This document shows, one piece after another, positions 39,685 to 54,224 of a DNA stretch of 54,224 nt. Position 1 is the first letter of the stretch, and each line of letters opens with the position of its first letter. A program made the translations under genes and the position numbers. Where the stretch lies: NCBI GenBank assembly GCA_003140235.1, contig PLJN01000148.1, positions 1 to 54,224 on the forward strand. Reading direction: 5' to 3'. Origin of the DNA: Acidobacteriaceae bacterium. GTDB taxonomy: Bacteria; Acidobacteriota; Terriglobia; Terriglobales; Acidobacteriaceae. The notes below the pieces were generated by a model. It searched no databases. It saw nothing but the letters and a program-made list of their open reading frames with translations, and was not told the DNA's origin.

Positions 39685-39878
39685 GGGCCTGGAAAGACTT
39701 GCATGGTCCTTGCGGTTCCCCCCTGGGGGATCAAATTCCTGGCGATGTGGAGAGACGAAACCGGCTCTCTTGCCCATGACTGCGTCATTCGCGTCCTTTG
39801 CGATCAGCTGCTTCGAATCGGGTTTCAACCCAGCCAAAAGACCATCATGTAAGCCATTGAAAACGTGAACAATTTAGC

Positions 39879-39894
39879 CGTTGACCGTTGACGG
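39879..39894. repeat. Heptamer tandem repeat CCGTTGA
   Basis: Two exact copies of CCGTTGA followed by a partial third (CGG). A similar A/T-rich heptamer (AATTTAG, 39871-39877) precedes in phase. No inverted partner was found nearby. Confidence 0.6.
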
Positions 39895-39935
39895 TTTCCG
39901 TAGTCTCGCGATACCATCCGCATCCGAAGAAGGCC

Positions 39936-39963
39936 AGTACTTAGTGGTTAGTTTTTAGTATTT
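39936..39963. repeat. Heptamer tandem repeat AGTNNTT, four units
   Basis: AGTACTT, AGTGGTT, AGTTTTT and AGTATTT follow one another without a gap. The unit is constant at AGT..TT and varies only at positions 4 and 5. The same unit recurs about 2.8 kb away in the etfA/etf-QO gap. Confidence 0.75.
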
Positions 39964-40147
39964 GGCAGAATCCAAAGCTAATGTGCCCGGTCTAAACTGT
40001 CAGGGATGCCCCCGGCCGCACACGTCGTGGTTGGAGTGACATTCTGCGGCAATCCGAGGGCGACGTGCTTTGCCGCTTGTGCGTCCAGACAAACCCACTT
40101 AATGTGGCCTCATGGATCAGCATTTGCTGTTCGATCCAGGAGGCAAT

Positions 40148-40912
40148 ATGCGGCGTATTTTACTGGCCATGTGTTTTGTGGGGTCGATCGTTCAGGCGCA
40201 GGATGTGCCGGTCGCTCCATCTCAATCCCCGGCGATAATCCAGCCCGAATCGCCAAAGCAAGCTGCGACTCAGTCAGGAGCGGAACCCGGGCCAGTCATT
40301 GTTGTTCCATCTGGACCGCAACTGCTTCTGCGGGATGGCAGTCCTGTTAAGTCTTTGTCGGCTGTGCCGGCTTTGGTGGTGACGAGCTACGAGCGTCACC
40401 GTCAGATGCGCCGCGATCGGGACGAGGAGTTTGTGGTGTTGCTCTGCAAGCCGTACGGCAGGTGGAAGACGTGTCCGCTTTGGACCCCGGGCGGCACGGA
40501 CGGTGTGGTGCCAGTTTCACTGGAACTGAAAGACGTTGACGGACTCGCACTTCGCTACCGTGAAGGCAAAGATTACGTCAGCCATCCGGACGGGTCGCCT
40601 GTGCACACGGCCAGAGGGCTGGACGTTTTTCGCTTCACAGTCCGCCCGGATAAAGATGCCCGTTTGGGCGCAACCACGCTGGAAGGCAGGCTCACGTATC
40701 AGAGAATTCAGGACGGAAAACTTTCGGCGCCGGAAACAATCGATGTAACCATTCCCGTGATGGTGGTGAAGCACGATACAGAGGTCGTGGAGAGCCACTG
40801 GTCGATTGAGTCGCCGAAACACAACCCGCTTGCGCCGCTCGGAAACGCGGTGCTCTACGTGATCGCGGCGCCTATCTTGCTGCCATTCCTCATCTTGCAG
40901 CATTCACTCTAA
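40148..40912 (+). CDS. Exported protein of unknown function with C-terminal membrane helix
   Basis: 254 residues from the ATG at 40148, which has AGGAGG 4 bases upstream. Signal peptide about 1-17 (ending VQAQ), a Pro/Ser-rich stretch to about 60, a predominantly beta middle region and a C-terminal hydrophobic helix (about 233-252, AVLYVIAAPILLPFLIL). No family recognised. The protein is probably anchored in the inner membrane by its C-terminus with the bulk in the periplasm. Monocistronic, convergent with the ETF:quinone oxidoreductase gene. Confidence 0.7.
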   Translation: MRRILLAMCFVGSIVQAQDVPVAPSQSPAIIQPESPKQAATQSGAEPGPVIVVPSGPQLLLRDGSPVKSLSAVPALVVTSYERHRQMRRDRDEEFVVLLCKPYGRWKTCPLWTPGGTDGVVPVSLELKDVDGLALRYREGKDYVSHPDGSPVHTARGLDVFRFTVRPDKDARLGATTLEGRLTYQRIQDGKLSAPETIDVTIPVMVVKHDTEVVESHWSIESPKHNPLAPLGNAVLYVIAAPILLPFLILQHSL

Positions 40913-40934
40913 CTGCGATTAGCCGGGAAAAACA

Positions 40935-41005
40935 TGAGCCGCGAATTTACGCGAATGATCGCGAATCAAACCGGAACCCGTGTTCTTCGCGTCATTCGCG
41001 GCTCA
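40935..41005. repeat. Inverted repeat with 10-base CGCGAAT units between convergent genes
   Basis: TGAGCCGCGAAT (40935-40946) is exactly mirrored by ATTCGCGGCTCA (40994-41005). The left arm continues as a tandem array: CGCGAAT+TTA, CGCGAAT+GAT, CGCGAAT+CAA. The right arm also contains CGCGTCATTCGCG, so alternative pairings are possible. It sits 22 bases after one stop codon and between two genes that converge, which fits a two-way terminator or 3'-end stabiliser. Confidence 0.8.
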
Positions 41006-41033
41006 GAGATTCTTCGGGCCATAGGGTTCCCTC

Positions 41034-41048
41034 TCCCGCTTTGCGGGA
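41034..41048. terminator. Small GC-rich hairpin downstream of the ETF:quinone oxidoreductase gene
   Basis: TCCCGC-TTT-GCGGGA forms a perfect 6-bp stem with a 3-base loop, 12 bases past the stop of the leftward gene. No U run follows on either strand, so termination by this hairpin alone is uncertain. Confidence 0.35.
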
Positions 41049-41060
41049 TCGGGATGTGAA

Positions 41061-42785
41061 CTACATGCCGTCGTAATTCGGACCACCGCCGCCCTCGGGC
41101 GGAACCCAGGTGATGATTTCGTAGGGGTCCATGATGTCGCAGGTTTTACAGTGGACGCAGTTGGAAGGATTCAGGTGGATCACTTTGCCTTTGGGCGCGT
41201 CTGCGGATTCTTCCATCTCGTAAACGTTCGCTGGGCAGAAATTCTGACACGGGTTGCCGAACTCTGTAACGCAGCGCATGTTGCAGATGTTGGTGTCGGC
41301 AATCACCAGATGTGACGGTTGGTCTTCTTCATGCTTGGTGCCGGAGTGATAGAGGTCGGTCAGTTTGTCGAAGGTCAGCTTGCCGTCGCCTTTGGCTTTG
41401 CCCAGGATTGCGGCGCGGTCGCCACCGTCTGCGGCCAGTTCGTCGAGATGCTTCATCCGAGTGTGGCCGGCTTTGGTGGGATAGACCTCATGCAAGCCGC
41501 GACCGCCGGTCATCTGCTGTAGCGCGGAGTGGAACAGTCCGGAGAGCAAGCCGTGTTCAAATCCCTGATGGAAGTTGCGGGCTTCCCAGAGTTCGTCTTT
41601 GATCCAGCTGGCGTCGACCTTGTGTTTGAAGTCGTGGAGCTTTGCCGCGCTGAAGTTGTTCTCGACCAGCGCTTCAAACGCAGTTTCCGCCGCGAGCATG
41701 CCGCTTTTGATAGCCAGATGAATGCCTTTGAGCCGCTGCGAGTTGAGAAACCCCGCTGAGTCACCGGTGATCATCCAGCCATTGCCGGCAACCGGAGGAA
41801 TGGAAAACCATCCGCCATAGGGAACAGTCTTGGCGCCGTAGCGAATCATCTTTCCGCCGTGAAGGAAGTGGGCGATCAGTGGATGCGTCTTCCACGTCTG
41901 CAACACACGCTGCGGATCAGTGCGCGGGTCGGCGTAATCTAGGCTGATGACGTAACCGAGCGAGACCAGGTTGTCGCGCGAGCCGTACATCCAGGAGCCG
42001 CCGTACTCTTTGGTGGTCAGCGGCCAGCCGAGCGAGAGAATGACTTCGCCTTTCTTGATCCGGCCGGAAGGAACTTCCCACAGCTCTTTCACGCCAATGC
42101 CATAGACCTGCGGATTGCAGTCCTTGTCCAGATTGAAACGGCGAACGAGTTGCTTGGTGAGCGATCCGCGAGCGCCTTCCGCGAGAACCGTGACTTTGGA
42201 CTTTAGGTCATACCCGGGCTCGAAGTTGGATTTCTTCTGGCCTTGCTTGTCCACGCCTTTGTCGTCGGTGCGGACACCGATGACGCGGTCACCGGCGTTA
42301 TCCAACAACAATTCCGATCCGGCAAAACCGGTGAAGACGGTGATGCCGGCCTGTTCGACTTTTTCTCCCAGCCACTTCATGAAACGGTTGATGGAGATGA
42401 TGCAATTGCCGTGGTCCTGCATGGGAGGCGGCATGGCCGGAGCCTGGTAGTACTTCTTTTCCGTCAGGAAATAAAAACTCTCGTGTTCGACCTGGGCTTC
42501 AATAGGAGCTTCGTCGCGCCAACTGGGAAGCAGTTCGTCCATGGAGCGGGGATCAAGCACCGCGCCGGAAAGATTATGCTGGCCGATCTCGCGCGCTTTT
42601 TCGAGAACGTAAATGTTCTCTTTGCTGAGCGGCGCGTCCGGATGGCGGCGATTATGTTTGTCAATCAGCTGCGAAAGACGCAACGCACACGCCATGCCCG
42701 CAGGCCCGCCGCCGACAATAGTGACGTCAGCTTCCATCTGCGGACGCTCGACGCCTTCGATTGGTTTACGGAAGAAGATAGTCAT
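41061..42785 (-). CDS. Electron transfer flavoprotein:ubiquinone oxidoreductase
   Basis: 574 residues, full length for the family. Passes electrons from reduced ETF to the quinone pool at the membrane. FAD-binding Rossmann motif TIVGGGPAGMACALRLSQ near residue 23; membrane-associated quinone-binding region in the middle; C-terminal ferredoxin-like part with the [4Fe-4S] cysteines in CVHCKTC (543, 546, 549) plus an upstream cysteine in the FCPANVYE region. It follows etfB-etfA on the same strand after a 103-base gap, so all three are likely one functional unit. The bases directly before the ATG belong to the heptamer repeat and contain no Shine-Dalgarno site. Confidence 0.95.
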   Translation of the reverse strand: MTIFFRKPIEGVERPQMEADVTIVGGGPAGMACALRLSQLIDKHNRRHPDAPLSKENIYVLEKAREIGQHNLSGAVLDPRSMDELLPSWRDEAPIEAQVEHESFYFLTEKKYYQAPAMPPPMQDHGNCIISINRFMKWLGEKVEQAGITVFTGFAGSELLLDNAGDRVIGVRTDDKGVDKQGQKKSNFEPGYDLKSKVTVLAEGARGSLTKQLVRRFNLDKDCNPQVYGIGVKELWEVPSGRIKKGEVILSLGWPLTTKEYGGSWMYGSRDNLVSLGYVISLDYADPRTDPQRVLQTWKTHPLIAHFLHGGKMIRYGAKTVPYGGWFSIPPVAGNGWMITGDSAGFLNSQRLKGIHLAIKSGMLAAETAFEALVENNFSAAKLHDFKHKVDASWIKDELWEARNFHQGFEHGLLSGLFHSALQQMTGGRGLHEVYPTKAGHTRMKHLDELAADGGDRAAILGKAKGDGKLTFDKLTDLYHSGTKHEEDQPSHLVIADTNICNMRCVTEFGNPCQNFCPANVYEMEESADAPKGKVIHLNPSNCVHCKTCDIMDPYEIITWVPPEGGGGPNYDGM

Positions 42786-42786
42786 T

Positions 42787-42893
42787 AGTACTTAGTATTT
42801 AGTACTTAGCGAGCTGTTCGTCGCCATCACTAAGTCAAAAATAGCACGCGGGAACGCGCCCTGCTAAATACTAACTACTAATTACTAACTACT
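42787..42893. repeat. Inverted heptamer-repeat element in the etfA/etf-QO gap
   Basis: Left arm 42787-42810 is AGTACTT, AGTATTT, AGTACTT, AGC. Right arm 42863-42893 is CTAAATA, CTAACTA, CTAATTA, CTAACTA (the complement unit). Over 24 bases the arms pair at 21 positions, and the three mismatches all fall at the same place of the heptamer, 7 bases apart. The left arm starts 2 bases from the ATG of etf-QO; the right arm contains the TAG stop of etfA (42889-42891). The loop is about 50 bases. Confidence 0.85.
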
Positions 42894-43881
42894 GTGCTTT
42901 TGCCTTCTTCACTTCTTCTGTCAGCGCAGGAACAATGTCGAACAGATTGCCGACCACGCCGAAATCGGCGATTTCAAAAATTGGCGCTTCGGCGTCTTTA
43001 TTAATCGCGATGATGCTTTTCGCGCCTTTCATGCCGACAATGTGTTGGATGGCGCCACTGATGCCGATGGCCAGATACAGCTTGGGAGCGACCGTTTGTC
43101 CCGAACTGCCGATCTGGCGATCCATGGGCAGCCAGCCGGAATCGCATATAGGACGCGATGCGGCGAGCTCGCCGCCGAGCGCGTCCGCCAGAGCTTTGGC
43201 GATTTCGATGTTTTTCTGTTCTTTGATGCCGCGACCGACGGAAACAATGATTTCAGCCTGTGTAAGATCCACTGCCTGCTTGGCTTCTTTGAATGGCTCT
43301 TCGGGCTGTGTGCGGATGGCATTGTCGGCAATCTGCGCGGTCACTGTTTCAACCGGAGCAGCGGACGCGCCGGCTTCGGCTTTGTCTCCGCGGAATGCGC
43401 CGGCCTGAAACGTGACAAAATGTGGCGGATCGCAAGCGAATGAAACGTCCGCGGCGAATTTGCCCTGGAACATCTGCCGCGTGAAGAGCAGCTTGTCACC
43501 GTCTTTGTGAAAGCCAACAGCGTCGCTGATGAGCGTCCGCTTGAGCGCAGAGGCGAGTTGCGGCGCAAAATCGCGCACCTGGTAGGTGTGCGGCATCAGC
43601 ACCAGCTTGGGCTGTTGCGCTTCAATGAATTGCTTCAGCGCGGCCACAGTGCCATCGGGCGTGTAGCTGGCCAGCTTGGGCGATTCAATGGCATGTACTT
43701 TGGCGAGCTTCTTGCCCGCGACTTCCGCGGCAACGCCGGCAATGCCGTAGCCAAAAACCGCGGCTTCGATGGTCCAGCCGGCTTCGGCCGCAATAGCTTG
43801 CGCCGCGGTGACCGTCTCCCAGGAGACGCGATTCAGTTTGCCTTCACGTTGTTCAGCAATAACCAGAATTGTGTTTGCCAT
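42889..43881 (-). CDS. etfA: Electron transfer flavoprotein alpha subunit
   Basis: 330 residues. Binds FAD and, with EtfB, collects electrons from acyl-CoA and other dehydrogenases. C-terminal FAD domain is clear: GSSGQTVAPKLYLAIGISGA and IQHIVGMKGAKSIIAINKD, then DFGVVGNLFDIVPAL. N-terminal domain about 1-190. It starts 15 bases after etfB ends. The etfB-etfA-etfQO order on one strand indicates a complete route for fatty-acid, amino-acid or sarcosine-type oxidation into the respiratory chain, although no acyl-CoA dehydrogenase is in the window. Confidence 0.95.
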   Translation of the reverse strand: MANTILVIAEQREGKLNRVSWETVTAAQAIAAEAGWTIEAAVFGYGIAGVAAEVAGKKLAKVHAIESPKLASYTPDGTVAALKQFIEAQQPKLVLMPHTYQVRDFAPQLASALKRTLISDAVGFHKDGDKLLFTRQMFQGKFAADVSFACDPPHFVTFQAGAFRGDKAEAGASAAPVETVTAQIADNAIRTQPEEPFKEAKQAVDLTQAEIIVSVGRGIKEQKNIEIAKALADALGGELAASRPICDSGWLPMDRQIGSSGQTVAPKLYLAIGISGAIQHIVGMKGAKSIIAINKDAEAPIFEIADFGVVGNLFDIVPALTEEVKKAKAQ

Positions 43882-43896
43882 TGTTTATTTCTTCAC

Positions 43897-44667
43897 TCAG
43901 AGTACGCGAACTTCGTTACGCAGTTTTTCCACCAGCTTCTTGGCGACTTCCGCGGCGGAGCCTTCCAGCATTTCCGTCTTCTTACTCTTTTGCGGAACGT
44001 AGAGTTTCTCGATCTTCTGCATGTTCTCGCCGAGAACTGACTTCACTTCGTCGAGCGCCACTTTGCGCAGCGGCTTATTCTTGGCCTGCTTGATGCCCAG
44101 CAGCGTGGCGTAACGCAGTTTGTTGATGCCCGATTGGATCGTCAGCACCGCGGGCACTGGCATGGCCACGTGCTGGAAGAAGCCTGATTCCAGCTCGCGC
44201 TTTACCTTGATGCCACCATCGGTTTTTTGGATTTCCATGATGATGGTGGCATGCGGCCACCCCAGCAGTTCGGCCATGATGACGCCCGTCTGCGCGTAGC
44301 CGTAGTCGTCGGATTGCAGGCCGGTGAAGATCAGGTCGAATTTGTCTTCTTTGATTACGGTGACAAATGCCCGGGCAATGTTGGCGGCGTCCATGCCGAC
44401 GAAGCCGTTGTCTTCGAGATGAATCGCACTGTCCGCGCCCTTGGCCAGAGCTTCACGCAGCACGGTTTGAGCACGCGCCGGACCAGCGGTAATCACGACC
44501 ACTTCTCCGCCGTGCTTTTCTTTCTGACGCAGCGCTTCTTCCAGTGCGTACGCGTCCGGTTCGTTGACCTCGTAGGAAACATCTTCGCGGATCCACGTAC
44601 CGCTCTCGTTGAGCTTCAGCGGAGCATCTTTTTGTGGGACCTGCTTCATGCAGACCAGAATTTTCAT
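43897..44667 (-). CDS. etfB: Electron transfer flavoprotein beta subunit
   Basis: 256 residues from the ATG at 44667; an upstream in-frame codon would add 15 residues with no clear site. Starts MKILVCMKQVPQKD, the usual opening. The family AMP-binding and recognition-loop region is seen in ITAGPARAQTVLREALAKGA and FTGLQSDDYGYAQTGVIMAE. Binds AMP and pairs with EtfA. First gene of the etf unit. The region upstream holds 8-base and 10-base repeats and presumably the operon promoter, which I cannot locate. Confidence 0.95.
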   Translation of the reverse strand: MKILVCMKQVPQKDAPLKLNESGTWIREDVSYEVNEPDAYALEEALRQKEKHGGEVVVITAGPARAQTVLREALAKGADSAIHLEDNGFVGMDAANIARAFVTVIKEDKFDLIFTGLQSDDYGYAQTGVIMAELLGWPHATIIMEIQKTDGGIKVKRELESGFFQHVAMPVPAVLTIQSGINKLRYATLLGIKQAKNKPLRKVALDEVKSVLGENMQKIEKLYVPQKSKKTEMLEGSAAEVAKKLVEKLRNEVRVL

Positions 44668-44751
44668 AAGAGAGTATTCCTGTGCGCTGGTTCGTGTAAC
44701 GCCCAAACGCACTCTTGGGGAACTGGTAAGTATAAATGAGACGGAAGGGGA

Positions 44752-44783
44752 TTTGGTAATTGGGTCAGATCGTAGTTGGGTAA
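44752..44783. repeat. Octamer repeat TTGGGTAA upstream of etfB
   Basis: Four in-phase octamers: TTTGGTAA, TTGGGTCA, GATCGTAG (degenerate), TTGGGTAA. The unit matches the complement of the octamer at 45195-45226 (TTACCCNN), about 430 bases away. No local inverted partner within this gap. Confidence 0.6.
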
Positions 44784-44795
44784 TGAGACCTCTGG

Positions 44796-44825
44796 ATCAG
44801 CGTTGTTCAGCGTGAATCAGCGGCA
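44796..44825. repeat. 10-base repeat: constant WTCAGCG plus three variable bases
   Basis: Three exact-phase units: ATCAGCG+TTG, TTCAGCG+TGA, ATCAGCG+GCA. Constant 7-mer and variable 3-mer match the layout of the right arm of the element between kbl and tdh. It ends 7 bases from the stop codon of the leftward zinc-ribbon gene. Confidence 0.75.
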
Positions 44826-44831
44826 ATTGTT

Positions 44832-45110
44832 TTAATCCAGAAACGCCACGGACTGCACGCCCGCGACTTCAAAGCGCTTGCGGCAACGCATGTTCTTGCA
44901 CATGACCATGTCGTCGCGGCGCAGCATGTAAGACTGGGCTTTGGCAAACTTGGCGCGATCGCGATCGTCGGCGCGTCCGCCGGGCAGTTGTTTCTTCTTG
45001 GTGCGGACCAGCCAGGAAAGCTCATACTCGCCGGCCTGCCGACAATGAGGGCACGTGAGAGAATGGGGCTTCTTGGCGTCTTTTTCGTCGTAAAAATCGC
45101 GCTCATCCAT
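44832..45110 (-). CDS. Small zinc-ribbon-like protein of unknown function
   Basis: 92 residues. Two metal-ligand-like pairs, CPHC (residues 20-23) and CKNMRC (71-76), separated by a charged middle, suggest a single zinc ribbon. The C-terminal end (FEVAGVQSVAFLD) is beta-like. No known domain beyond that. Ribosome-binding site is weak. It stands alone between repeat elements on both sides, 164 bases from etfB. Plausible roles (RNA or nucleic-acid contact) are inference. Confidence 0.65.
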   Translation of the reverse strand: MDERDFYDEKDAKKPHSLTCPHCRQAGEYELSWLVRTKKKQLPGGRADDRDRAKFAKAQSYMLRRDDMVMCKNMRCRKRFEVAGVQSVAFLD

Positions 45111-45134
45111 AAATCCAAATATAAACCAAAAAAG

Positions 45135-45226
45135 ATTGGTTCATTGGGGAATTTGGTAAATTGGGAATGAAAACACTCGTTTGGGGCGCCAAAATTACCC
45201 AGTTACCAATTTACCCGGTTACCCGA
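45135..45226. repeat. Inverted octamer-repeat element
   Basis: Left arm 45135-45166: ATTGGTTC, ATTGGGGA, ATTTGGTA, AATTGGGA. Right arm 45195-45226: TTACCCAG, TTACCAAT, TTACCCGG, TTACCCGA. Units are 8 bases long and the arms are roughly complementary, with a 28-base loop. In the right arm TTACC is constant and the last three bases vary. It begins 24 bases upstream of the leftward gene's start and ends 18 bases before the small basic gene at 45245. Confidence 0.8.
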
Positions 45227-45244
45227 TTTCTCTAAACTGGGAAC

Positions 45245-45412
45245 GTGCCGAAAAAGAAGAAGCTGAAGAAGTTCCGAGCGACCGCCGCGGTCAAGTCCAT
45301 TGCGCGTGCGGTCCTGGGTACGCCTCCGCCTGTAAAGCGACGGGAGAATAAGAAGCTGACCAAGAAGGAAAAACACAAAGCTACTCTCGGGAAACTGCTG
45401 GACACGGTGTAG
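45245..45412 (+). CDS. Small basic Lys/Arg-rich protein
   Basis: 55 residues with a GTG start (PKKKKLKKFRATAAVKSIAR, then KRRENKKLTKKEKHKATLGK). About one third of the residues are Lys or Arg, which suggests a nucleic-acid-binding or ribosome-associated protein. The ribosome-binding site is weak (GGGAAC). The coding pattern (third-base choice, clean end) supports it as real, but it could be a spurious frame. pyrR follows 79 bases later. No family recognised. Confidence 0.5.
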   Translation: MPKKKKLKKFRATAAVKSIARAVLGTPPPVKRRENKKLTKKEKHKATLGKLLDTV

Positions 45413-45491
45413 CCGCGAGCTTTGATTCATCATGCCCGTGAGGGATTCGCCTTGGCGCGGGGCCTCTCGATCAGCTATCATGCGTGGGATT

Positions 45492-46073
45492 ATGAAAGCT
45501 GAATCCGCACCCCGCCTCCCCAACCTGCGCGAAAAAGGACGCATTATGTCCGCCTCGGAAGTGGAACGCACACTGGTCCGGCTCGCGCACCAGATCATGG
45601 AAAAGAACAACGGCGTGGACGACCTGGTGCTGGTCGGACTCAAGCGGCGCGGCGTTCCACTGGCCGACCGGCTGGGCAAGCTGATTACCCAGATTGAAAA
45701 GAAACCTGTGGCCATCGGCACCCTGGACATCACTCTCTATCGCGACGATCTCTCCACCGTCGGCGCCAATCCAGTGATCCAAAAAACCACACCGCTGGGA
45801 GTGGAGATTGGCAACAAAAACGTGATCCTCGTGGACGACGTTCTATACACAGGGCGCACCGTTCGCGCCGCCATGGACGCCCTATTCGACCATGGCCGCC
45901 CGCGCCGCGTGCAACTCTGCGTACTCATTGATCGCGGACATCGCGAGCTGCCCATTGAAGCCGCGTTTGTGGGCCGCACCATCCAGACCACCGCGAATGA
46001 GATTGTGGAAGTCCGCGTCACCGAGATTGATAACGAAGAGCAAGTCGTGCTGGTGGAGCGTGCCAGTAGCTAG
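45492..46073 (+). CDS. pyrR: PyrR-type bifunctional pyrimidine regulator / uracil phosphoribosyltransferase
   Basis: 193 residues from the ATG at 45492. PRTase fold with the PRPP loop VILVDDVLYTGRT at 111-123, the usual SASEVERTLVRLAHQI opening and GLKRRGVPLADRL. In Gram-positive bacteria PyrR binds pyr mRNA; in others it may serve mainly as uracil phosphoribosyltransferase. No anti-antiterminator or PyrR-binding loop is visible in the 79 bases upstream. pyrB begins one base after its stop, so the two are co-translated. Confidence 0.92.
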   Translation: MKAESAPRLPNLREKGRIMSASEVERTLVRLAHQIMEKNNGVDDLVLVGLKRRGVPLADRLGKLITQIEKKPVAIGTLDITLYRDDLSTVGANPVIQKTTPLGVEIGNKNVILVDDVLYTGRTVRAAMDALFDHGRPRRVQLCVLIDRGHRELPIEAAFVGRTIQTTANEIVEVRVTEIDNEEQVVLVERASS

Positions 46074-46074
46074 G

Positions 46075-46980: not shown

Positions 46981-46983
46981 AGA

Positions 46984-47083
46984 AGCAATTGGCAATTAGC
47001 AATTGGCAATCAGCCGGACGTTCGGGAAACCAACGGTGTTGCCAGACTTTTGGCTATTCGCCAATTGCTAATTGCCAATTGCT
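46984..47083. repeat. 24-bp perfect inverted repeat built of heptamers, between pyrB and pyrC
   Basis: 46984-47007 is the exact reverse complement of 47060-47083. Each arm is itself a period-7 tandem array: CAATTGG, CAATTAG, CAATTGG, CAATCAG in the left arm. Loop 52 bases. It starts 3 bases after the pyrB stop, and pyrC starts 30 bases after the right arm with no Shine-Dalgarno site. The hairpin would be stable despite being A/T-rich and would separate pyrC from pyrRB on the mRNA. Confidence 0.92.
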
Positions 47084-47113
47084 GAAATCTGCGCTGCGCG
47101 ACAATTTCAACCA

Positions 47114-48409
47114 ATGAAAAAACAGAGCCTGACAATACGTGGCGGACATGTCATCGACCCCGCCGAGAAACTCGACGGGCCGTACGACATCCTGCTCAAA
47201 GACGGACTGGTCGCTGAGGTCGCTGCGCGGGGCAAGCTTCGCGGCAAGGGCGATGACACGTTTGATGCTCGCGGGTTGATCGTGGCGCCCGGCTTCATTG
47301 ATATCCACGTTCATCTGCGCGAGCCCGGGCAGACGGTGAAAGAAACCATAGCCACCGGGACGGCTGCCGCCGCTGCGGGCGGCTTTACTTCCGTCTGCGC
47401 GATGCCTAATACCAATCCCGTGAATGATCTGCCGGCCATCACTCGCTGGATGCAGGACCCGGAACGCGGAGCGCGCGTCAACGTCTTTCCGATTGCCGCC
47501 GCCACCGTCGGAAGCATGGGCGAACAGCTCACTGATTACACCATGCTCAAGCGCGCCGGGGCAGTGGCCGTGACCGACGATGGCAAACCGATTCTGCCCG
47601 ACAAGATCATGCGTGAAGCCCTGCTGGCCGCGGCCCGTGTGGGTCTGCCGGTGATTCAGCATGCGGAAGACACGCGCATGACGAAAGGCGCCGCGATGCA
47701 TCAAGGGCCAACGGCGTTTCGTCTGGGCCTACGCGGCTGGCCGGCGGAAGCCGAGTCTTCACTGGTGGAGCGCGACATCCGACTGGCGGCCGAGACCAAG
47801 GGCCACTACCACGTCGCGCATTTGTCCGCTGCGGCGGCGCTGAAGGCCGTGCGTCGGGCCAAGCGCGAGCACGTGCACGTAACCTGCGAAGTCACTCCGC
47901 ATCACTTCGCGCTGATTGATGAAGACGTTGGCGAGTACAACACCAATTTCAAAATGAATCCGCCACTGCGCTCGCGCGAAGACCGTGACGCTCTGCTCGC
48001 CAGCCTGGCTGACGGCACCGTGGATTGCGTAGCCACCGACCACGCGCCGCATCCTCAGAACGAGAAAAATGCCGAGTTCGATCAGGCGCCTTTTGGCATT
48101 ACCGGGCTCGAAACGGCGCTGGGACTGTGCGTCTCCATTCTTCATGTGCAAGAGAATATTCCCATGCGGCGGATTATCGAGTTGTTGTCAACGAATCCAG
48201 CCCGCGTAATGGGACTGGCGCATCGCGGTACGCTCGCGGTTGGCTCTTACGCCGACGTAACTATTTTTGATCCGAACAAGAAATGGTCCTACCGCGCTGT
48301 GGAGTCGTTCTCCAAATCTAAAAACTCGCCATTTGATGGCTGGAAGCTGCAAGGGGAAGTTGTGGCTACGGTGGTCGGTGGTCACATGGTCTTCCACAGC
48401 CTTTCCTGA
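47114..48409 (+). CDS. pyrC: Dihydroorotase
   Basis: 431 residues from the ATG at 47114, type I (long) dihydroorotase. Closes carbamoyl-aspartate to dihydroorotate. Zinc ligands HVH (H65, H67) in FIDIHVHLREPGQ, substrate loop MPNTNPV, later histidines in VIQHAED and YHVAHLSAA, and the catalytic Asp in CVATDHAPH. Follows pyrB on the same strand and would form the usual PyrB-PyrC pair. Start is unusual: no ribosome-binding site within 25 bases. Its stop lies 1 base from the convergent gene. Confidence 0.95.
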   Translation: MKKQSLTIRGGHVIDPAEKLDGPYDILLKDGLVAEVAARGKLRGKGDDTFDARGLIVAPGFIDIHVHLREPGQTVKETIATGTAAAAAGGFTSVCAMPNTNPVNDLPAITRWMQDPERGARVNVFPIAAATVGSMGEQLTDYTMLKRAGAVAVTDDGKPILPDKIMREALLAAARVGLPVIQHAEDTRMTKGAAMHQGPTAFRLGLRGWPAEAESSLVERDIRLAAETKGHYHVAHLSAAAALKAVRRAKREHVHVTCEVTPHHFALIDEDVGEYNTNFKMNPPLRSREDRDALLASLADGTVDCVATDHAPHPQNEKNAEFDQAPFGITGLETALGLCVSILHVQENIPMRRIIELLSTNPARVMGLAHRGTLAVGSYADVTIFDPNKKWSYRAVESFSKSKNSPFDGWKLQGEVVATVVGGHMVFHSLS

Positions 48410-48410
48410 G

Positions 48411-49376
48411 CTACTTTTTCGGCGCGATGTTGAAGTTCGAAAAATCAAGCCAGACGGATTTCGCAAACTCTTTGGCAAAAATCTTGTACGCCCCATAGCA
48501 ACGGACCGAAGCAGCTGCCAACCCCAACGCAAGTACCAGCAAAAGGAAATTAGGATGATAGATTGGTGCCGACACTTTTACATTTGCCATCCAGCGGGCT
48601 GCCAGCAACCCAGATAACAACGCCACCGCACCAAGACACGCGGAGAGCAAACGGACACGCAAGTTTGACTTAGGCTTGGCTCCGCCGGGTGCTACGGCCT
48701 TCTTCTCTGCAGCCGGCGGAAGAGAAAACGCAAGCGTGAACACCAGAAAGATCAAAAGCAGTACCATCGTGCCGTCCAGCGCCAGCACGTTTTTCCAAAC
48801 TTCGGAAACCGACCCGGCCTTGACCAGCGCCGAGCCTCCCCAGCCCAGATAAAAGAGACATCCCGCAGCCAGAGCCACAGAAATGCCCCGCATGAGCGCG
48901 TATAAACCCTCAAATTGCTCCACATAAGACTTTTTGCTGTTCTGGATCAACGTGCTTCGCGCCTGGGAAAAAGCAGCGTTTCTCAGCCGAGAAACGCTAT
49001 TCAGTTCTTCTTCCGTGAGATCCTTGAGATCGTCTCCTGCTCTCACCTCCAATTTAAAGAGTGATTTGCACAGCTTGCCAATCATTGTTTTTGTCTCGGC
49101 GACAAAGGTCCCATCTTGATGGTCAAGTAACACAGCGGAAGGGTATCTTTGCTTGCCGAATGTGTCCCTGATGGTGGACGCAATCAAATTGGAAGCCAGG
49201 GTCTGGATAAGCATGCCAACTATGTAAGCCAGCATCAGGGCCAGAATTGCGGAGGAAATGTCCGTGGCCGGCCACTTGTGGAACGCCACACCAAAAGGCA
49301 TCCACACTAGCCCACCTAGTACGAACCCAGGCAAAACATACCCGTAGATGTCGTAGAAATTGAATTTTTCGATCAT
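48411..49376 (-). CDS. Membrane protein of unknown function (about five helices)
   Basis: 321 residues from the ATG at 49376 (GAGGAA site). Opens IEKFNFYDIYGYVLPGFVLG, a stretch shared by uncharacterised membrane proteins often linked to defence or signalling loci. Two helices at about 13-65, a long cytoplasmic helical region (about 70-165) and three more helices at about 170-310. It starts 7 bases after the DHH phosphoesterase gene on the same strand and is likely co-transcribed with it. A membrane partner for a nucleotide-handling enzyme is a possible reading but not shown. Confidence 0.65.
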   Translation of the reverse strand: MIEKFNFYDIYGYVLPGFVLGGLVWMPFGVAFHKWPATDISSAILALMLAYIVGMLIQTLASNLIASTIRDTFGKQRYPSAVLLDHQDGTFVAETKTMIGKLCKSLFKLEVRAGDDLKDLTEEELNSVSRLRNAAFSQARSTLIQNSKKSYVEQFEGLYALMRGISVALAAGCLFYLGWGGSALVKAGSVSEVWKNVLALDGTMVLLLIFLVFTLAFSLPPAAEKKAVAPGGAKPKSNLRVRLLSACLGAVALLSGLLAARWMANVKVSAPIYHPNFLLLVLALGLAAASVRCYGAYKIFAKEFAKSVWLDFSNFNIAPKK

Positions 49377-49383
49377 GGTTTCC

Positions 49384-50364
49384 TCACTGTGGTCTGCCAG
49401 TAGTCTGCCGCAATTCCTGCAATAGTTTGTCACGCGCAACGCGCGCCGTGGCGATATCGTCTTTGCCCAGAATCACGGAACCTACCCGTTGGTGCCCACC
49501 GCCGCCGAATTGTCGCATAAACTCCCCTAAATTGACACTCTCAAAATTGCGCCACGGGTTCCGCATGGCCGTTACCGTGATAGCATCTTTGGAATGGAGG
49601 ATAGCGATCGAATAGTCGGCTTGAGGGAAGAAATAATACGGAGAATAACGATTGACCAACGAACCTTCAGTGTTAACTTCAGAGATAACAACGCCATGCT
49701 CCAGCCGAGCGGCCACTCGCATGCGCTCTAAGCCGAGCTTCTTAAGCTCACTGGCTTGGGCCGACCTTTGTTGTACCGCCGCCGCCGCCGCCGTCTCAGC
49801 CAGCGATGCTTGGCACAACTTACGTACAAGGAAATTGCAATATTCACGGTCCGCAGCAATGGCCAGACTTGAACTGATGATCATGGCCGGATGCTCACTG
49901 GAAATTGCCTCCTGCACCGAGTCGTAGCCCGCGGAGTCAATCTTCTCCGCCCAGTGTACCATCTCTTCCAGACGTGAGGCGCCGTGGAGCGCCAGACCCA
50001 CTACTTCTCGCCACAAGAGAGAAGCACAGGATCCGCTTTGCCGGTCGTAGATACGGCTGGGGCCTTGGCGCTCCTCGAAATCCGCCTTTGCTTCGTCGGT
50101 TAGGAAGGTGGTGGAATGATGGTCGGCCCAGAATCCGGCCTGCGGATGATACAAAAAATCAACCACCGCACTGCGCCCGGGCAAAGGTGTGGCCAGCCAG
50201 CGGTCCTTGAGTTCGTAGTTCACCGGCTCAAGGGTCTTGAATCGCCAGCCACGGGTCTTCTCCAGAAAAAGAATTGCCAAGACACCTGAAATCACCCCGT
50301 CAAAACAGGGGAAATGCAGGTAGAGCGAAGCGCGCTTGTTGCAGAAAAAAATTGACCAGGGCAA
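49384..50364 (-). CDS. DHH superfamily phosphoesterase
   Basis: 326 residues from the TTG at 50364 (AGAGGA 6 bases upstream); another TTG at 50379 is possible. The DHH core motif is FWADHHST (81-83 = DHH) and the C-terminal DHHA1 domain ends in FGGGGHQRVGS (about 290-300). The first metal motif is changed (HFPCFDGVISG instead of the usual D-x-D), so the metal site may be incomplete. DHH enzymes include nanoRNases, cyclic di-nucleotide phosphodiesterases and RecJ. The membrane protein gene 7 bases downstream is its probable partner. TTG start is rare in this window. Confidence 0.75.
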   Translation of the reverse strand: MPWSIFFCNKRASLYLHFPCFDGVISGVLAILFLEKTRGWRFKTLEPVNYELKDRWLATPLPGRSAVVDFLYHPQAGFWADHHSTTFLTDEAKADFEERQGPSRIYDRQSGSCASLLWREVVGLALHGASRLEEMVHWAEKIDSAGYDSVQEAISSEHPAMIISSSLAIAADREYCNFLVRKLCQASLAETAAAAAVQQRSAQASELKKLGLERMRVAARLEHGVVISEVNTEGSLVNRYSPYYFFPQADYSIAILHSKDAITVTAMRNPWRNFESVNLGEFMRQFGGGGHQRVGSVILGKDDIATARVARDKLLQELRQTTGRPQ

Positions 50365-50466
50365 TGTGTGTCCTCTCAAACCAGCAAGGATAGCTGGCTT
50401 TATGAATTGGTCAACCGGAAATTGTTGAATTGAGTGTAGGGGTCCCTCGCTCCGGTCGGGGCAAAA

Positions 50467-51681
50467 TCAAGACAGAATCCCCATCCGCTTCCCAACGTTC
50501 TTCAGCACCTCAAGCGCCTTACTCAACTGGTCGTGCGTGTGGGTTGCCGTCATGATCGTCCGCAGGCGGGCTTTGCCTTCCGCCACTGTCGGAAACGCGA
50601 TACCGGGCACGAAGACGCCTGCGTTGAACAGTTCGCGGCTGAACTCCATGGCCAGCCGGCCTTCGCCCACGATGATGGGAGTAATCGGCGACTCGCTCAC
50701 CGGAGTAGTCACCCCGCCGATGTTGAAGCCCAGCGCGCCCAGTTCTTTTTTAAAGAAGTGCGTGTTCTCCCAGAGTTTTTCGATCAGTTCCGGCTCCTGC
50801 TCGAGCACATCAAAAGCGGCAATGCAGGTTGCCGCAACCGACGGCGGATGCGACGTGGAAAACAGGAACGGTCGCGCGCGGTGATAGAGGAAATCAATCA
50901 GGTCTTTGGAGCCGCACACGTACCCGCCCAGCGCGCCGATGGCTTTGGAGAGTGTGCCGACTTGAATGTCGACGCGTCCATGCATTTTAAAATGATCAAC
51001 CGTACCGCGGCCGTTGCTGCCGAGCACGCCGGAGGAGTGGGCGTCGTCAATCATCATGATCGCGCCGTATTTGTCCGCGAGATCGCAGAGCGCGGGCAGT
51101 GGGCCAATATCGCCGTCCATGGAGAAAACACCGTCGGTGATGATCAGCTTGTGGCCGGGCTGGCTGGCTACGGACTGCAACAGCTCTTCGGCATGAGCAA
51201 CGTCTTTATGGCGAAAGACTTTGATCGTTGCCCGGGAGAGCCGCGCGCCGTCAATGATGCTGGCATGATTCAGCTCGTCCGAGATGATGAAGTCTTCTTT
51301 TCCCAGAATCGCGGACACCGTGCCGGCATTCGCGGCAAAGCCTGACTGAAACACTACCGCGGCTTCGGTATGTTTGAAGCGCGCAATCTTTTCTTCGAGC
51401 TCCATGTGGATGGTCATGGTGCCACTCACCGTGCGCACCGCACCCGAGCCGACGCCGTATTTTTTGATCGCCGCCAGCGCCGCTTCGCGCAGCTTGGGAT
51501 GAGTGGTCAGACCGAGATAATTATTCGACGCCAGATTAATGACGCGCTTGCCATCGACCGTGCATTCTGGCGCCTGAGCATCTTCGACTACGCGCAGGTT
51601 GAAGTGCGTGCCCTTCTGCCTGAGCTGGTTCATTTGATCGGTGAGGTAGGAGAGCTGGGAGCGCGTGGTGGTGGTCGCCAT
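50467..51681 (-). CDS. kbl: Glycine C-acetyltransferase (2-amino-3-ketobutyrate CoA ligase)
   Basis: 404 residues. PLP enzyme that cleaves 2-amino-3-ketobutyrate with CoA to glycine and acetyl-CoA, the second step of threonine breakdown. Schiff-base lysine in VGTLSKAIG (K246), cofactor-binding IDDAHSSGVLG (D212, H215) and SNNYLGL near the N-terminus are intact. It follows tdh on the same strand after a 192-base gap that is mostly inverted repeat. Related enzymes (serine palmitoyltransferase, AONS) are less likely because of the tdh neighbour. Confidence 0.93.
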   Translation of the reverse strand: MATTTTRSQLSYLTDQMNQLRQKGTHFNLRVVEDAQAPECTVDGKRVINLASNNYLGLTTHPKLREAALAAIKKYGVGSGAVRTVSGTMTIHMELEEKIARFKHTEAAVVFQSGFAANAGTVSAILGKEDFIISDELNHASIIDGARLSRATIKVFRHKDVAHAEELLQSVASQPGHKLIITDGVFSMDGDIGPLPALCDLADKYGAIMMIDDAHSSGVLGSNGRGTVDHFKMHGRVDIQVGTLSKAIGALGGYVCGSKDLIDFLYHRARPFLFSTSHPPSVAATCIAAFDVLEQEPELIEKLWENTHFFKKELGALGFNIGGVTTPVSESPITPIIVGEGRLAMEFSRELFNAGVFVPGIAFPTVAEGKARLRTIMTATHTHDQLSKALEVLKNVGKRMGILS

Positions 51682-51713
51682 GAAATCGAGGTCCTTCCGT
51701 GAACGAAACTATT

Positions 51714-51877
51714 TTAGCCGCAGATTTTCGCAGATGAACGCAGATAAGAATAATGGGTCTCGAATGAACGCGAATCAACACGAATGTCAAAGCAGTTTTT
51801 AAAAGATTCGCGTACTTTCGCGTTGATTCGCGGCTAAAGCTCTTGATCAGCGTTCATCAGCGAAAATCTGCGGCTAA
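51714..51877. repeat. Nested pair of inverted repeats built of 10-base units, between tdh and kbl
   Basis: Outer arms: 51714-51731 is exactly mirrored by 51860-51877 (18 bp), and pairing continues inward with single mismatches. The left arm is CGCAGAT+TTT, CGCAGAT+GAA, CGCAGAT+AAG. The right arm is ATCAGCG+TTC, ATCAGCG+AAA, ATCTGCG+GCT. Inner arms: 51769-51784 pairs with 51817-51832 (15 of 16), built of CGCGAAT units and mirrored by ATTCGCG+TAC, TTTCGCG+TTG, ATTCGCG+GCT. The outer right arm includes the TAG stop of tdh (51874-51876). Confidence 0.92.
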
Positions 51878-52935
51878 CTTCCTGCCGGTATCCCGTTCGG
51901 ATACAGCAAAATCTTACTCGCTTCACCGCTCTTTAGCCGGTCCATGCATTTATTGAAATCCGTCATGGCCATGCGGTCGGTGATGACCGGGTCCAGATCG
52001 AGCTTATGGGCTTTGAGCAGGGCGTTCATCTGGTACCAGGTCTTGTACATCAGGCGTCCGTTGATGCCTTGAACAATGGCGCCTTTGAAAATAATGTCGT
52101 CGGCCAGGTTCAGCTCCATTGGCTTAGAAGGAATACCCAGCAACGAAGCTCTGCCGCCGAGCCGCAGAATCTTAAAGCCCAGGCGGATGGCATCGGGATG
52201 GCCGGACATTTCCAGCACAACGTCCACGCCGGTCCCTTCTGTCACCTGCATCACTTTTTCGTAGACGTTGTCGTGCGTGGGGTCGAGAACATAATCGGCC
52301 TTCATTTCTTTCGCCAGCTTGCGCCGGTGGTCGTTGGTCTCCAGAGCAAAGACCCCACTCGCTCCGCAGGCGCGGGCCACGGCAATGGCAAATAGCCCGA
52401 TCGGTCCACAGCCGATAATGGCCACGGTCTTGGCGGCAATCTCGCCGGCCAGCACGGTATGCACAGCGTTGCCCAGAGGATCGAGCACGCTGGCGTAATC
52501 GGCGGGAATGGCGGGATCAATCTTCCATATATTCGATTCCGGAATCTTTACGTATTCGGCGAAAGCGCCGTCGGCGTCCACGCCGATGATCTTGACGTGC
52601 TGGCAGATGTGGCCCTCGCCCGTACGGCACTGGTAGCACTTGCCACAGGCCACATGCATTTCCGCCGAAACAAAATCGCCTTCTTTGACTGTGGTGACAT
52701 TCTTGCCAATGGCCACCACGTCTCCGCAAAACTCGTGGCCAGGGATCAGCGGCGGCTTGATGCGGTTCTGCGCCCACTGGTCCCAGTTGTAAATATGCAG
52801 ATCGGTGCCGCAGACGGAGGCCACTTTCACTTTTACCAGCACGTCGTCCGGGCCAATTTGTGGGACCGGCACTTGGCGCAACTCAGCTCCCGGCGCAGCC
52901 TCCGGTTTTACGACAGCTAGCATGGTTTCAGGCAT
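51874..52935 (-). CDS. tdh: L-threonine 3-dehydrogenase
   Basis: 353 residues, zinc-dependent MDR family. Oxidises threonine to 2-amino-3-ketobutyrate with NAD. Catalytic zinc ligands C42 (VCGTDLHIYNWDQWAQ), H67 and E68 (PGHEFCGDV); structural zinc Cys at 97, 100, 103, 111; NAD-binding GCGPIGLFAIAVA near 170. Length and motifs fit TDH well. First gene of tdh-kbl. No regulator seen in the 100 bases upstream. Confidence 0.95.
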   Translation of the reverse strand: MPETMLAVVKPEAAPGAELRQVPVPQIGPDDVLVKVKVASVCGTDLHIYNWDQWAQNRIKPPLIPGHEFCGDVVAIGKNVTTVKEGDFVSAEMHVACGKCYQCRTGEGHICQHVKIIGVDADGAFAEYVKIPESNIWKIDPAIPADYASVLDPLGNAVHTVLAGEIAAKTVAIIGCGPIGLFAIAVARACGASGVFALETNDHRRKLAKEMKADYVLDPTHDNVYEKVMQVTEGTGVDVVLEMSGHPDAIRLGFKILRLGGRASLLGIPSKPMELNLADDIIFKGAIVQGINGRLMYKTWYQMNALLKAHKLDLDPVITDRMAMTDFNKCMDRLKSGEASKILLYPNGIPAGS

Positions 52936-53035
52936 CAGGTTCCTAGTGAGTGCGGATGATGAAAAGGCAAACTATTCATTTTAACAAATGCAGGCGCATC
53001 TCCCCGGCGCCCGTTGATTCGTGGCGGCGGCTCTC

Positions 53036-53365
53036 CTACTTGTAGTGAATCATGTAAAGGATTTGCCCGGAGGTCTTGGAAAGCTTTACTTCCGCTGTGC
53101 CGCCGTCGCAAGCGGGAGCCCCGCAGTGCAGAGTCCCGGCAACGGTCCATACATCGGCTTGAAGCACCGCCTTGAACGGACGCTCGGAAGCGATTTGTTT
53201 TTCGCCATAAACCGGGACCAATATGGCTTCTGCAATTTTCACCGCAGTTTCTGCGGTGGGTACATAACCGTCCTTGGGCTGAAAAGAGGGTGCTCGACCC
53301 GTCTGTGAAGAAGCGGAACTCAGTATTATTCCAAACATTACGACGGCGAATAGCGTGGCTTTCAT
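53036..53365 (-). CDS. Secreted NTF2-fold / YbbC-YhhH-like small protein
   Basis: 109 residues from the ATG at 53365 (AGAGG 8 bases upstream); a GTG three codons earlier is possible. Signal peptide about 1-21. The mature part (GYVPTAETAVKIAEAILVPV, then DVWTVAGTLH, ending SGQILYMIHYK) matches the NTF2-fold immunity type seen in polymorphic toxin systems. No toxin gene is adjacent, so an immunity role here is unproven; a free-standing periplasmic protein is equally likely. Confidence 0.65.
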   Translation of the reverse strand: MKATLFAVVMFGIILSSASSQTGRAPSFQPKDGYVPTAETAVKIAEAILVPVYGEKQIASERPFKAVLQADVWTVAGTLHCGAPACDGGTAEVKLSKTSGQILYMIHYK

Positions 53366-53479
53366 GCCAGACACCTCTTAAATTATTCTAGTTTCCCAAT
53401 CGTTTTGAGTTTAGCAAGAATGAAGAAGCGCTAAAGTCCCCACCGGGTTATGATGTCGAACTCAGAGGAGAAAACATTT

Positions 53480-54073
53480 ATGGCCAAGAAAGATCCTCGT
53501 ATAGACGCCTACATCGGCAAAGCCGCCGGTTTTGCCAAACCAATTCTGAAGCACTTGCGCGCCCTGGTCCACGCAGGCTGTCCGGACGTGGAAGAGACCA
53601 TGAAATGGAGCTTCCCGCACTTTGACTATAACGGCATCATGTGCAGTATGGCCGCGTTTAAGCAGCATTGCGCTTTCGGATTCTGGAAAGGCGCGCTCAT
53701 TGCTTCCACCAAGCCCGAGGCCATGGGCCAGTTCGGACGCATCACCAGCCTCAACGACCTGCCTAAAGACAGCGTGATCATCGGCTATGTGAAGGAAGCG
53801 GTGCGATTGAATGGCGAGGGAGTCAAGCTGCCGCCCCGGCCCAAGCGGCGCAAAGAAGCCTTGCGAATCCCTGCTGAACTTAAGATGGCGCTCAAGAAGG
53901 TTTCCGCTGCCAAAACCAAGTTTGCCGAGTTTAGTCCCAGCCAGCAGCGCGAATATGCGGAGTGGATCACTGAGGCCAAGACGAAAGAAACCCGCGCCAA
54001 GCGGCTTGCTACGGCTGTTACCTGGATCAAAGACGGGAAGCCTAGAAATTGGAAGTACATGAAGTCGTCGTGA
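53480..54073 (+). CDS. YdeI/OmpD-associated (DUF1801 plus OmdA) family protein
   Basis: 197 residues from the ATG at 53480 (AGAGGAG upstream). DUF1801 domain at about 10-115 (VEETMKWSFPHFDYNGIMCS, FGFWKGALIAS) and a C-terminal OmdA helical part (FSPSQQREYAEWITEAKTKE, then AVTWIKDGK). Cytoplasmic. E. coli YdeI is tied to peptide and acid stress through unclear means; no direct function is known. Single gene, divergent from the NTF2-like gene, followed by the start of a 10-base-type repeat. Confidence 0.83.
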   Translation: MAKKDPRIDAYIGKAAGFAKPILKHLRALVHAGCPDVEETMKWSFPHFDYNGIMCSMAAFKQHCAFGFWKGALIASTKPEAMGQFGRITSLNDLPKDSVIIGYVKEAVRLNGEGVKLPPRPKRRKEALRIPAELKMALKKVSAAKTKFAEFSPSQQREYAEWITEAKTKETRAKRLATAVTWIKDGKPRNWKYMKSS

Positions 54074-54096
54074 TCTTTCCGGCTGGAAAACCTTAC

Positions 54097-54224
54097 CGCT
54101 GACGCTGATAACGCTGATTGAGGCGGGCGTTGGTGCGTCGCGAAAACTCTTGGTCTTTAATTCCCGAGCGGCATCATAGCAGATGCCTGCCAGAGGGATG
54201 CACAATCATTCACAAAAATCAGCG
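54097..54224. repeat. CGCTGAT repeat element running to the window edge
   Basis: CGCTGA, CGCTGAT, CGCTGAT lie at 54097-54118. At the right end of the window AATCAGCG (54217-54224) is the exact complement of CGCTGATT, suggesting the opening of the opposite arm, cut by the edge. It starts 23 bases after the stop codon of the YdeI-like gene. Spacing of the units (6 and 9 bases) is less regular than in the other elements. I see no gene in the loop. Confidence 0.6.

Follow-up and report, generated by a model that had tools for sequence, protein, structure and literature searches.

The window analysed here is the whole of a 54,224-nucleotide contig (PLJN01000148.1, assembly GCA_003140235.1) from an Acidobacteriaceae bacterium. 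Towards its end, gaps between genes carry short phased tandem arrays of micro-repeats, many of them arranged as a pair of inverted arms, of a kind that in related genomes encloses a gene of one of two families, S23p (the 23S rRNA intervening sequence (IVS) protein, PF05635, also IVP) or GxxExxY (PF13366, PDDEXK_3 by its Pfam name). Direct reading of 39.5-54.2 kb together with Tandem Repeats Finder (TRF) located eight sites with phased arrays, of periods 7, 8 and 9-10, between 39.88 and 54.22 kb. Five of these have an inverted partner (40936-41005, 42773-42893, 45134-45229, 46984-47083 and 51714-51877), and a sixth, starting at 54087, has its right arm truncated where the contig stops. An earlier note on this DNA had described at least eight sites with periods of 7, 8 or 10 and an inverted second arm at five of them, and both descriptions held. 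In the first 39.7 kb of the window one isolated S23p-pattern match was found and no matches to the other patterns were seen, and an extra GxxExxY-pattern match lies at 39787-39802. The whole window gave no match to Rfam 15 above the gathering threshold.

The units at these sites fit three classes. AGTNNTT and CAATTNG both fit RGYNNTY, the S23p-type unit; CGCNNAT with three further nucleotides fits a CRCNRAK core, which is GxxExxY-type; and TTACCNNN represents a third, 8-nt class. The earlier note had kept four unit spellings apart, all of which were seen, but two of them fall into a single class. Its proposal of a structural class with locus-specific sequence is sustained by the phase, by the inverted arms and by the unlikeness to a single dispersed repeat, but the class splits into types that are tied to protein families.

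An S23p-type lone arm lies at 39936-39966 on the plus strand and reads AGTACTT AGTGGTT AGTTTTT AGTATTT GGC in the pattern scan. A gene-less S23p-type element of dialect AGT..T fills the etfA-etfQO gap at 42773-42893 (inverted repeat score 21, period 7, z 7.8; both genes named by Pfam), and its arms extend into both genes and contain the etfA stop codon and the etfQO start codon. Another, of dialect AGC..T, lies in the pyrB-pyrC gap at 46984-47083 (inverted repeat score 25, period 7, fold -56.6 kcal/mol). Phased CRCNRAK cores occur in both inverted arms at 40936-41005 and 51714-51877. The former, identified by pattern scan and reading, is gene-less, with CGCGAAT three times in the left arm and CGCGAAT and CGCGAAG in the right. 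The latter, in the tdh-kbl gap, is a gene-less outer GxxExxY-type element with CGCAGAT/CGCTGAT cores (inverted repeat score 35, period 10), within which direct reading and scans place a second GxxExxY-type element with CGCGAAT cores and a degraded left end (51763-51837), so that the whole reads as one element nested in another. A GxxExxY-type left arm with CGCTGAT cores lies at 54087-54119 on the plus strand (pattern scan and reading); a possible right arm starts near 54217 and breaks off at 54224, the last nucleotide of the contig, and as the contig ends within this apparent arm, such repeats may break assemblies. The 8-nt class is represented by a single arm on the plus strand at 44750-44785 (GATTTGGTAATTGGG..., pattern scan and reading) and by a gene-less element at 45134-45229 with GGTAA/TTGGG in the left arm and TTACCNNN in the right, which was detected by TRF, pattern scan and fold and missed by an ungapped inverted-repeat scan. 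Immediately after this element, at about 45244-45412, is a short Lys/Arg-rich open frame (MPKKKKLKKFRA...) that was not called by our simple gene caller. At 39878-39896, 2.7 copies of the 7-nt unit CCGTTGA form a single, weakly typed arm (TRF and direct reading). None of the window elements encloses a called gene, S23p and GxxExxY genes included. Inverted terminal repeats able to form a stem are present in the window elements and in the loci of relatives.

What the earlier note missed is that in other genomes genes of the two protein families sit between the arms. The lead came from the pyrB-pyrC gap in relatives from the same genus: AGCAATT-type arms without a gene occur in the window genome and in one relative (G004), period-10 arms surround a GxxExxY gene in four relatives, neither is found in one, and in one pyrB was unusable. 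Nine genomes of the genus were searched for PF13366 and PF05635, and flanks were compared at 27 GxxExxY and 28 S23p loci, from 33 and 40 listed matches, respectively, fragments and rows without a locus being left out. Most of these genes are flanked by inverted micro-repeat arms, with L089 and L091 among the few GxxExxY loci showing weak arm matches. The comparison was widened to the best 80 of 579 S23p relatives and, across the phylum, to 29 new GxxExxY loci among the matches listed. When complete, an element consists of one short gene with an arm on either side, the two arms being inverted relative to each other, and it usually lies in sense orientation between genes of a host operon. Two unrelated proteins share this plan: S23p, with a 7-nt step (6-9 nt at other S23p loci), and GxxExxY.

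By record title, the best 80 S23p loci come from at least 10 phylum-level groups, including Acidobacteria, Nitrospirae, Nitrospinota, Chloroflexi, Cyanobacteria, Poribacteria, Bacteroidetes, Proteobacteria, Planctomycetes, Actinobacteria and others. A lag-7 signal was present upstream of the gene in 61/80 and downstream in 31/79, compared with 2/147 control segments at 750-900 bp, and the flanks show a rise at lags 7 and 14 only. When the genus loci were added and the compared segment included the gene end, phased runs were found on the left at 85/94 loci and on the right at 79/94 (control 7/147), and an apparent asymmetry in favour of the upstream flank was dropped for this reason. Read inwards, the unit is RGYNNTY with G at position 2 in 96% and position 5 nearly free, and arms most commonly hold four or five units at a 7-nt step. 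Within an element, 97% of units share one letter at position 3, and left and right arms have the same letter there in 67/67 elements (chance 0.55); the arms also agree at position 7 (0.90, chance 0.40). These dialect letters cluster on the S23p tree, which has few columns and many weak forks, with 13 changes at position 3 against 21.8 after shuffling and nine at position 7 against 28.4; 0 of 2000 shuffles reached the observed counts. Unit by unit, positions 4-5 match between arms no better than after shuffling units within an arm (55 loci, p 0.35). Identity at the NN positions does not decay with distance between units, being 0.258 at lag 1 and 0.297 at lag 4, and this flat profile gives no signal of local duplication.

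A second S23p subfamily in the genus, the 8-nt subfamily, has units of 7, 8 or 9 nt and an inverted repeat at 13/13 loci. At 20 more S23p loci from five multi-copy genomes the arms vary in spelling, with periods of 6-9, and a phased run (lags 6-9) is found on both sides at 20/20, with 10/38 control segments passing the same lax threshold. Five S23p loci were found in IMG/VR, four of which have arms on both sides by reading, and the one S23p query made against phage records gave no match. Several arrays are stacked around a single S23p gene at L304 and L382, a hint of repeated insertion at the same spot. S23p genes also occur on cyanobacterial plasmids (L391-L395, Nostocales), where one adjoins a TrbI/VirB10 gene and four of the five have tandem arms by reading, two of these four being near-identical Calothrix plasmids. 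This Calothrix brevissima pair was rejected as an independent insertion, as the S23p gene lies within a larger shared gene order.

At 56 GxxExxY loci, at least two phased CRCNRAK cores were found on the left in 46/56 and on the right in 45/56, compared with 5/106 in controls. At the 29 phylum loci, whose flanks were unprinted when the pattern was written, the figures were 23/29 and 25/29. Three cores per arm are typical (68/91 arms), with a step of 8-10 nt, and a plain lag test is weak for this class because the step varies. In 42 two-armed elements, left and right arms have the same letter at the variable core positions in 90-100% (chance 41-69%). A GxxExxY element lies between ispD and ispF in six species of the genus (neighbours identified by Pfam IspD and YgbB for L107, and for the other five by flank match to L107), and its proteins form one clade (94/98). 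Their dN/dS is 0.07-0.15 (3/10 unsaturated pairs), leaving out L109, which has a stop in the matched GxxExxY stretch. Recognisable cores read CGC in three of these species and CAC in three, and the CAC species form a sub-clade (87/88). This switch is a concerted change, via selection by the protein or homogenisation. We note that one complete genome of 4.5 Mb (G105; L347-L361, L364, L365) has 28 GxxExxY matches, with fragments scattered over the genome in near-identical repeats of at most 1.4 kb; these copies were rejected as recent insertions of small elements, as 17/19 stretches share such repeats.

The same linkage is seen between genomes. Among 149 genomes of the phylum, the median count of three-core GxxExxY arrays is 63 in the 55 with PF13366 and 1 in the 94 without (p 4e-18), and that of S23p arrays is 5 in the 75 with PF05635 and 0 in the 74 without (p 5e-9); as the genomes are related, these p values do not come from independent samples. 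At least 10 GxxExxY-type arrays occur in 48/55 genomes with the gene and 8/94 without, and at least 10 S23p-type arrays in 32/75 and 4/74, respectively. A reversed-pattern control for GxxExxY totalled 331 matches against 5492 real ones, and was somewhat higher in genomes with the gene.

Array statistics were obtained from 695,897 bp of the 4.9-Mb source genome (approximately 14%, window included, 120 kb of it gaps), with genes called by a simple home-made caller that misses some short genes. TRF arrays occur at 1.155/kb in gaps, with a period peak at 7-10, compared with 0.316/kb in coding sequence; two dinucleotide-shuffled versions of the gaps gave 0.075 and 0.108/kb. The gap regions (179 kb) contain 18 inverted repeats with an internal period of 7-10 (z at least 4) and none after one shuffle, and 55 inverted repeats of all kinds against five shuffled. 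The density of phased arrays, a point on which the earlier note had staked its class, is therefore not shared by shuffled sequence. Its statement that they are absent from coding sequence was too strong, as arms enter etfA and etfQO and coding arrays occur at approximately one quarter of the gap rate. Unit spellings in gaps are numerous and include AGCAATT, AGTNNTT, GATCGGGT, ATTGCCAGA, CGCGAAT and CACAAAGGA, and the pattern AGTNNTTAGTNNTTAGT has 28 matches, some overlapping, in the whole genome and none in its reversed control. The sole S23p gene found in the source genome (C139:5381-5647) lies between AGTNNTT arrays at 5240-5256 (+) and 5692-5708 (-), which were detected independently of the gene search. 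A further family of dispersed palindromes (CATCCCGAA...GAGGGATCCCTAT-like), distinct from the arrays and showing little internal period, is present in the source genome (L019:4953-5035, L013:604-739 and L005:2980-3116).

Of the 18 periodic inverted repeats, 17 were considered for placement, one (C20) lying inside a called gene, and 16 could be placed, the last being at a contig end: 11 lie between co-directional genes, four between convergent and one between divergent genes, compared with 184, 42 and 81 for all gaps of at least 60 bp. The stop-side distance is at most 28 nt in 17/19, and the adjacency to stop codons described in the earlier note was mostly confirmed. Among 133 scored loci, with neighbours defined by the longest open frame, element genes between co-directional neighbours are sense in 82 and antisense in seven. 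Orthologous gaps with both flanking genes were found in 9/30 genomes for tdh-kbl, 19/30 for etfA-etfQO and 7/8 for pyrB-pyrC. In the 19 etfA-etfQO genomes, the gap is nearly empty (-2 to 23 bp) in five, holds micro-repeat elements by reading in eight and other sequence in six; five of the eight contain a Pfam-confirmed S23p gene, four sense and one antisense. As these gaps are either empty or variously filled, insertion of elements into an operon joint that used to be tight is well supported, and the type that fills this joint differs between genomes. One such gap (L294) holds other short open frames and no repeat-armed element, and this joint seems open to several kinds of insert. No clear target duplication was found at the ends of 42 GxxExxY and 63 S23p gene-bearing elements of relatives, in which end direct-repeat lengths were close to control; 7-nt direct repeats numbered two and one, against 0.5 and 0.2 expected.

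Several known systems resemble parts of this picture. Repetitive extragenic palindromes (REP) and bacterial interspersed mosaic elements (BIME), with their RAYT proteins, are small intergenic inverted elements; in contrast, the units described here differ by locus, have internal phase and have other proteins between the arms, and no common GTAG/CGTC-type tag was apparent on reading the window units, no tag or RAYT search having been made. The short tandemly repeated repetitive (STRR) heptamers of heterocystous cyanobacteria are degenerate tandem 7-mers in gaps, and neither inverted pairing nor a gene link belongs to their description as we know it; the S23p genes with tandem 7-nt arms on Nostocales plasmids are a point of likeness. 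Closest is the IVS in the 23S rRNA of Coxiella burnetii, which, in the consulted parts of PMC4990558, has inverted repeats forming a 28-bp stem, an S23p gene inside and tandem GACAGAT heptamers upstream. Like the S23p loci of relatives, this IVS thus combines inverted terminal repeats, an S23p gene and heptamers, and it sits inside a host transcript. Unlike it, so far as those parts describe it, the elements here lie in gaps between protein genes and not in 23S rRNA, have phased arrays in both arms, show many dialects, are often gene-less, and include a second, unrelated gene family with the same plan. Intergenic TAACTGA repeats of Beggiatoaceae, Cyanobacteria and Bacteroidetes are direct repeats near start codons, discussed as possible sites of a translational regulator (PMC4679880, consulted in part). 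Their tandem reverse complement reads AGTTATC and fits RGYNNTY, and identity with S23p arms is a lead only; the terms S23 and four helix are absent from the text of that paper. The one mention of GxxExxY considered in the literature, in PMC8934634, concerns genes near reverse transcriptases. Our literature search found no paper linking S23p or GxxExxY genes to micro-repeat arms. The combination of inverted ends, tandem heptamers and an S23p gene is already known from Coxiella and the paired tandem geometry from Geobacter (below), so far as the consulted parts of those papers go; what the literature found does not contain is that both gene families are associated, between genes and across phyla, with coded micro-repeat arms.

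The window arrays are probably gene-less members and solo arms of repeat-armed elements akin to the IVS, whose proteins we infer to read their own arms, each recognising its arm unit by unit, with both binding and movement putative. An S23p of Xanthomonas campestris is described as a toroidal homopentamer (PMC4990558, consulted parts). The S23p protein, a four-helix bundle, matches structure 2gsc (XCC0516, five chains), which is taken to be that pentamer. The presence of four or five units per arm alongside a pentamer invites a model in which the ring would bind the phased units one per subunit. TRAP is a precedent for binding of one unit per subunit. As a 7-nt step keeps no single face of B-DNA, the S23p target would be single-stranded RNA or DNA; for GxxExxY, duplex DNA would be a fitting target, with three cores spaced at close to the helical repeat. 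The sense bias suggests that element genes are expressed from host transcripts, and the element would be carried along by transcription of its host. Copies without a gene, such as those in the window, would have arisen by deletion or been moved in trans as passengers.

Other explanations must be weighed against this reading. The arms might be RNA hairpins that act as transcript-end or RNase III processing signals, their complementarity being kept by selection for pairing; transcript 3'-end or processing roles, which the earlier note had also raised, are possible. Consistent with hairpins are the short stop-side distances, the cleavage of the Coxiella IVS by RNase III in its stem (PMC4990558, consulted parts) and the above-chance agreement between arms of the majority letters at free positions, together with the strong folds predicted on the sense strand at all five paired window sites, which also count against elements read by protein. 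However, free letters are unmatched unit by unit, unit consensus and dialect are conserved beyond complementarity alone, and single arms exist (39936-39966 and 44750-44785), so that we regard hairpins as unlikely, if a serious contender. Conventional DNA transposons with miniature inverted-repeat transposable elements, in which a transposase (the GxxExxY nuclease or one unseen) binds the arms as terminal inverted repeats and gene-less copies are moved in trans, would account for inverted ends with a cargo gene between them, for array matches that far exceed the gene count, for the five nearly empty etfA-etfQO gaps and for the PDDEXK_3 name of GxxExxY. Yet end direct repeats are close to control, S23p matches no nuclease family, the sense bias is strong, and a GxxExxY element is retained at one site in six species; as such, we consider this explanation distinctly unlikely.

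Paired tandem 7- or 8-mers in inverted orientation at variable distance, adjoining or between genes, have been described in Geobacter metallireducens as classes 1-4 of global regulator binding sites, possibly for IHF/HU (PMC2700814, consulted in part). The geometry, compared by description, is nearly the same, and no S23p or GxxExxY link is made in the consulted parts. Here repeat class follows the enclosed small gene and one genome holds several dialects, a pattern that a general nucleoid protein would not explain, and host regulator sites of this sort are very improbable as the basis of the arrays. Even without a protein, scars left in permissive gaps by replication slippage or template switching would fit the tandem and inverted geometry and the gap-rich distribution. 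This origin, whose template-switching form the earlier note had also suggested, is disfavoured by unit identity that is flat with distance, by free letters unmatched between arms, by the same unit consensus across phyla and by the link with two gene families, which is seen at single loci and between genomes alike, and we give it hardly any weight.

Several observations count against the repeat-armed elements that we favour. For the inverted repeat scores that speak in their favour (at least 13 at 18/27 and 23/29 GxxExxY loci, at 14/15 and 55/80 S23p loci and at 13/13 loci of the 8-nt subfamily), the control with mispaired flanks is not low (3/54, 7/58, 7/30, 23/160 and 6/26), in part because loci share units. 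RGY..T served as the seed for the S23p register, and the arm-agreement and matching counts used only those units that fit RGY. Arms share composition even at free positions, as majority letters agree above chance at position 4 (0.75 vs 0.38) and position 5 (0.48 vs 0.26), and common descent alone could produce the dialect clustering on the S23p tree. The period of the 8-nt class is looser. In the genome comparison, at least 10 arrays occur without the gene in eight (GxxExxY-type) and four (S23p-type) genomes, and the reversed-pattern control for S23p is high (3136 vs 6653 real) and rises with the gene (mean 41 vs 0.8), which makes the S23p test the weaker of the two. The source genome has one S23p and three GxxExxY matches for 140 and 212 overlapping array matches, and several gene-less dialects lack a resident protein (the assembly is 89% complete). 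Nor are TRF arrays rare in gaps that separate divergent genes (array-bearing gaps: 26 co-directional, one convergent, 10 divergent, six at an edge). Among the 20 S23p loci of the five multi-copy genomes there were no near-identical copies with different flanks, and as such no recent movement was seen. Binding of arms by the proteins and movement of the elements remain predictions from sequence.

To our knowledge, neither of the common bacterial families S23p and GxxExxY has an established function, and intergenic arrays of 7-10 nt have so far been reported piecemeal as regulator sites. S23p is likewise said to have no known function in the consulted parts of PMC4990558. Tying the spelling of the repeats to a protein family makes a testable question of recognition out of both puzzles: the unit code is concrete, and the unit step, the number of units and the specificity of the dialect are all predicted. 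More tentatively, and with rather less than even confidence, these may be members of a widespread and unnamed kind of element with a protein-read repeat code, whose dialects coevolve with the protein and which spreads or persists as a sense passenger of host transcripts at the level of RNA or single strands, many unexplained bacterial heptamer and octamer repeats being its gene-less remains. If this is true, the repeat code would consist of a unit step, a typical number of units and dialect letters tied to each protein.

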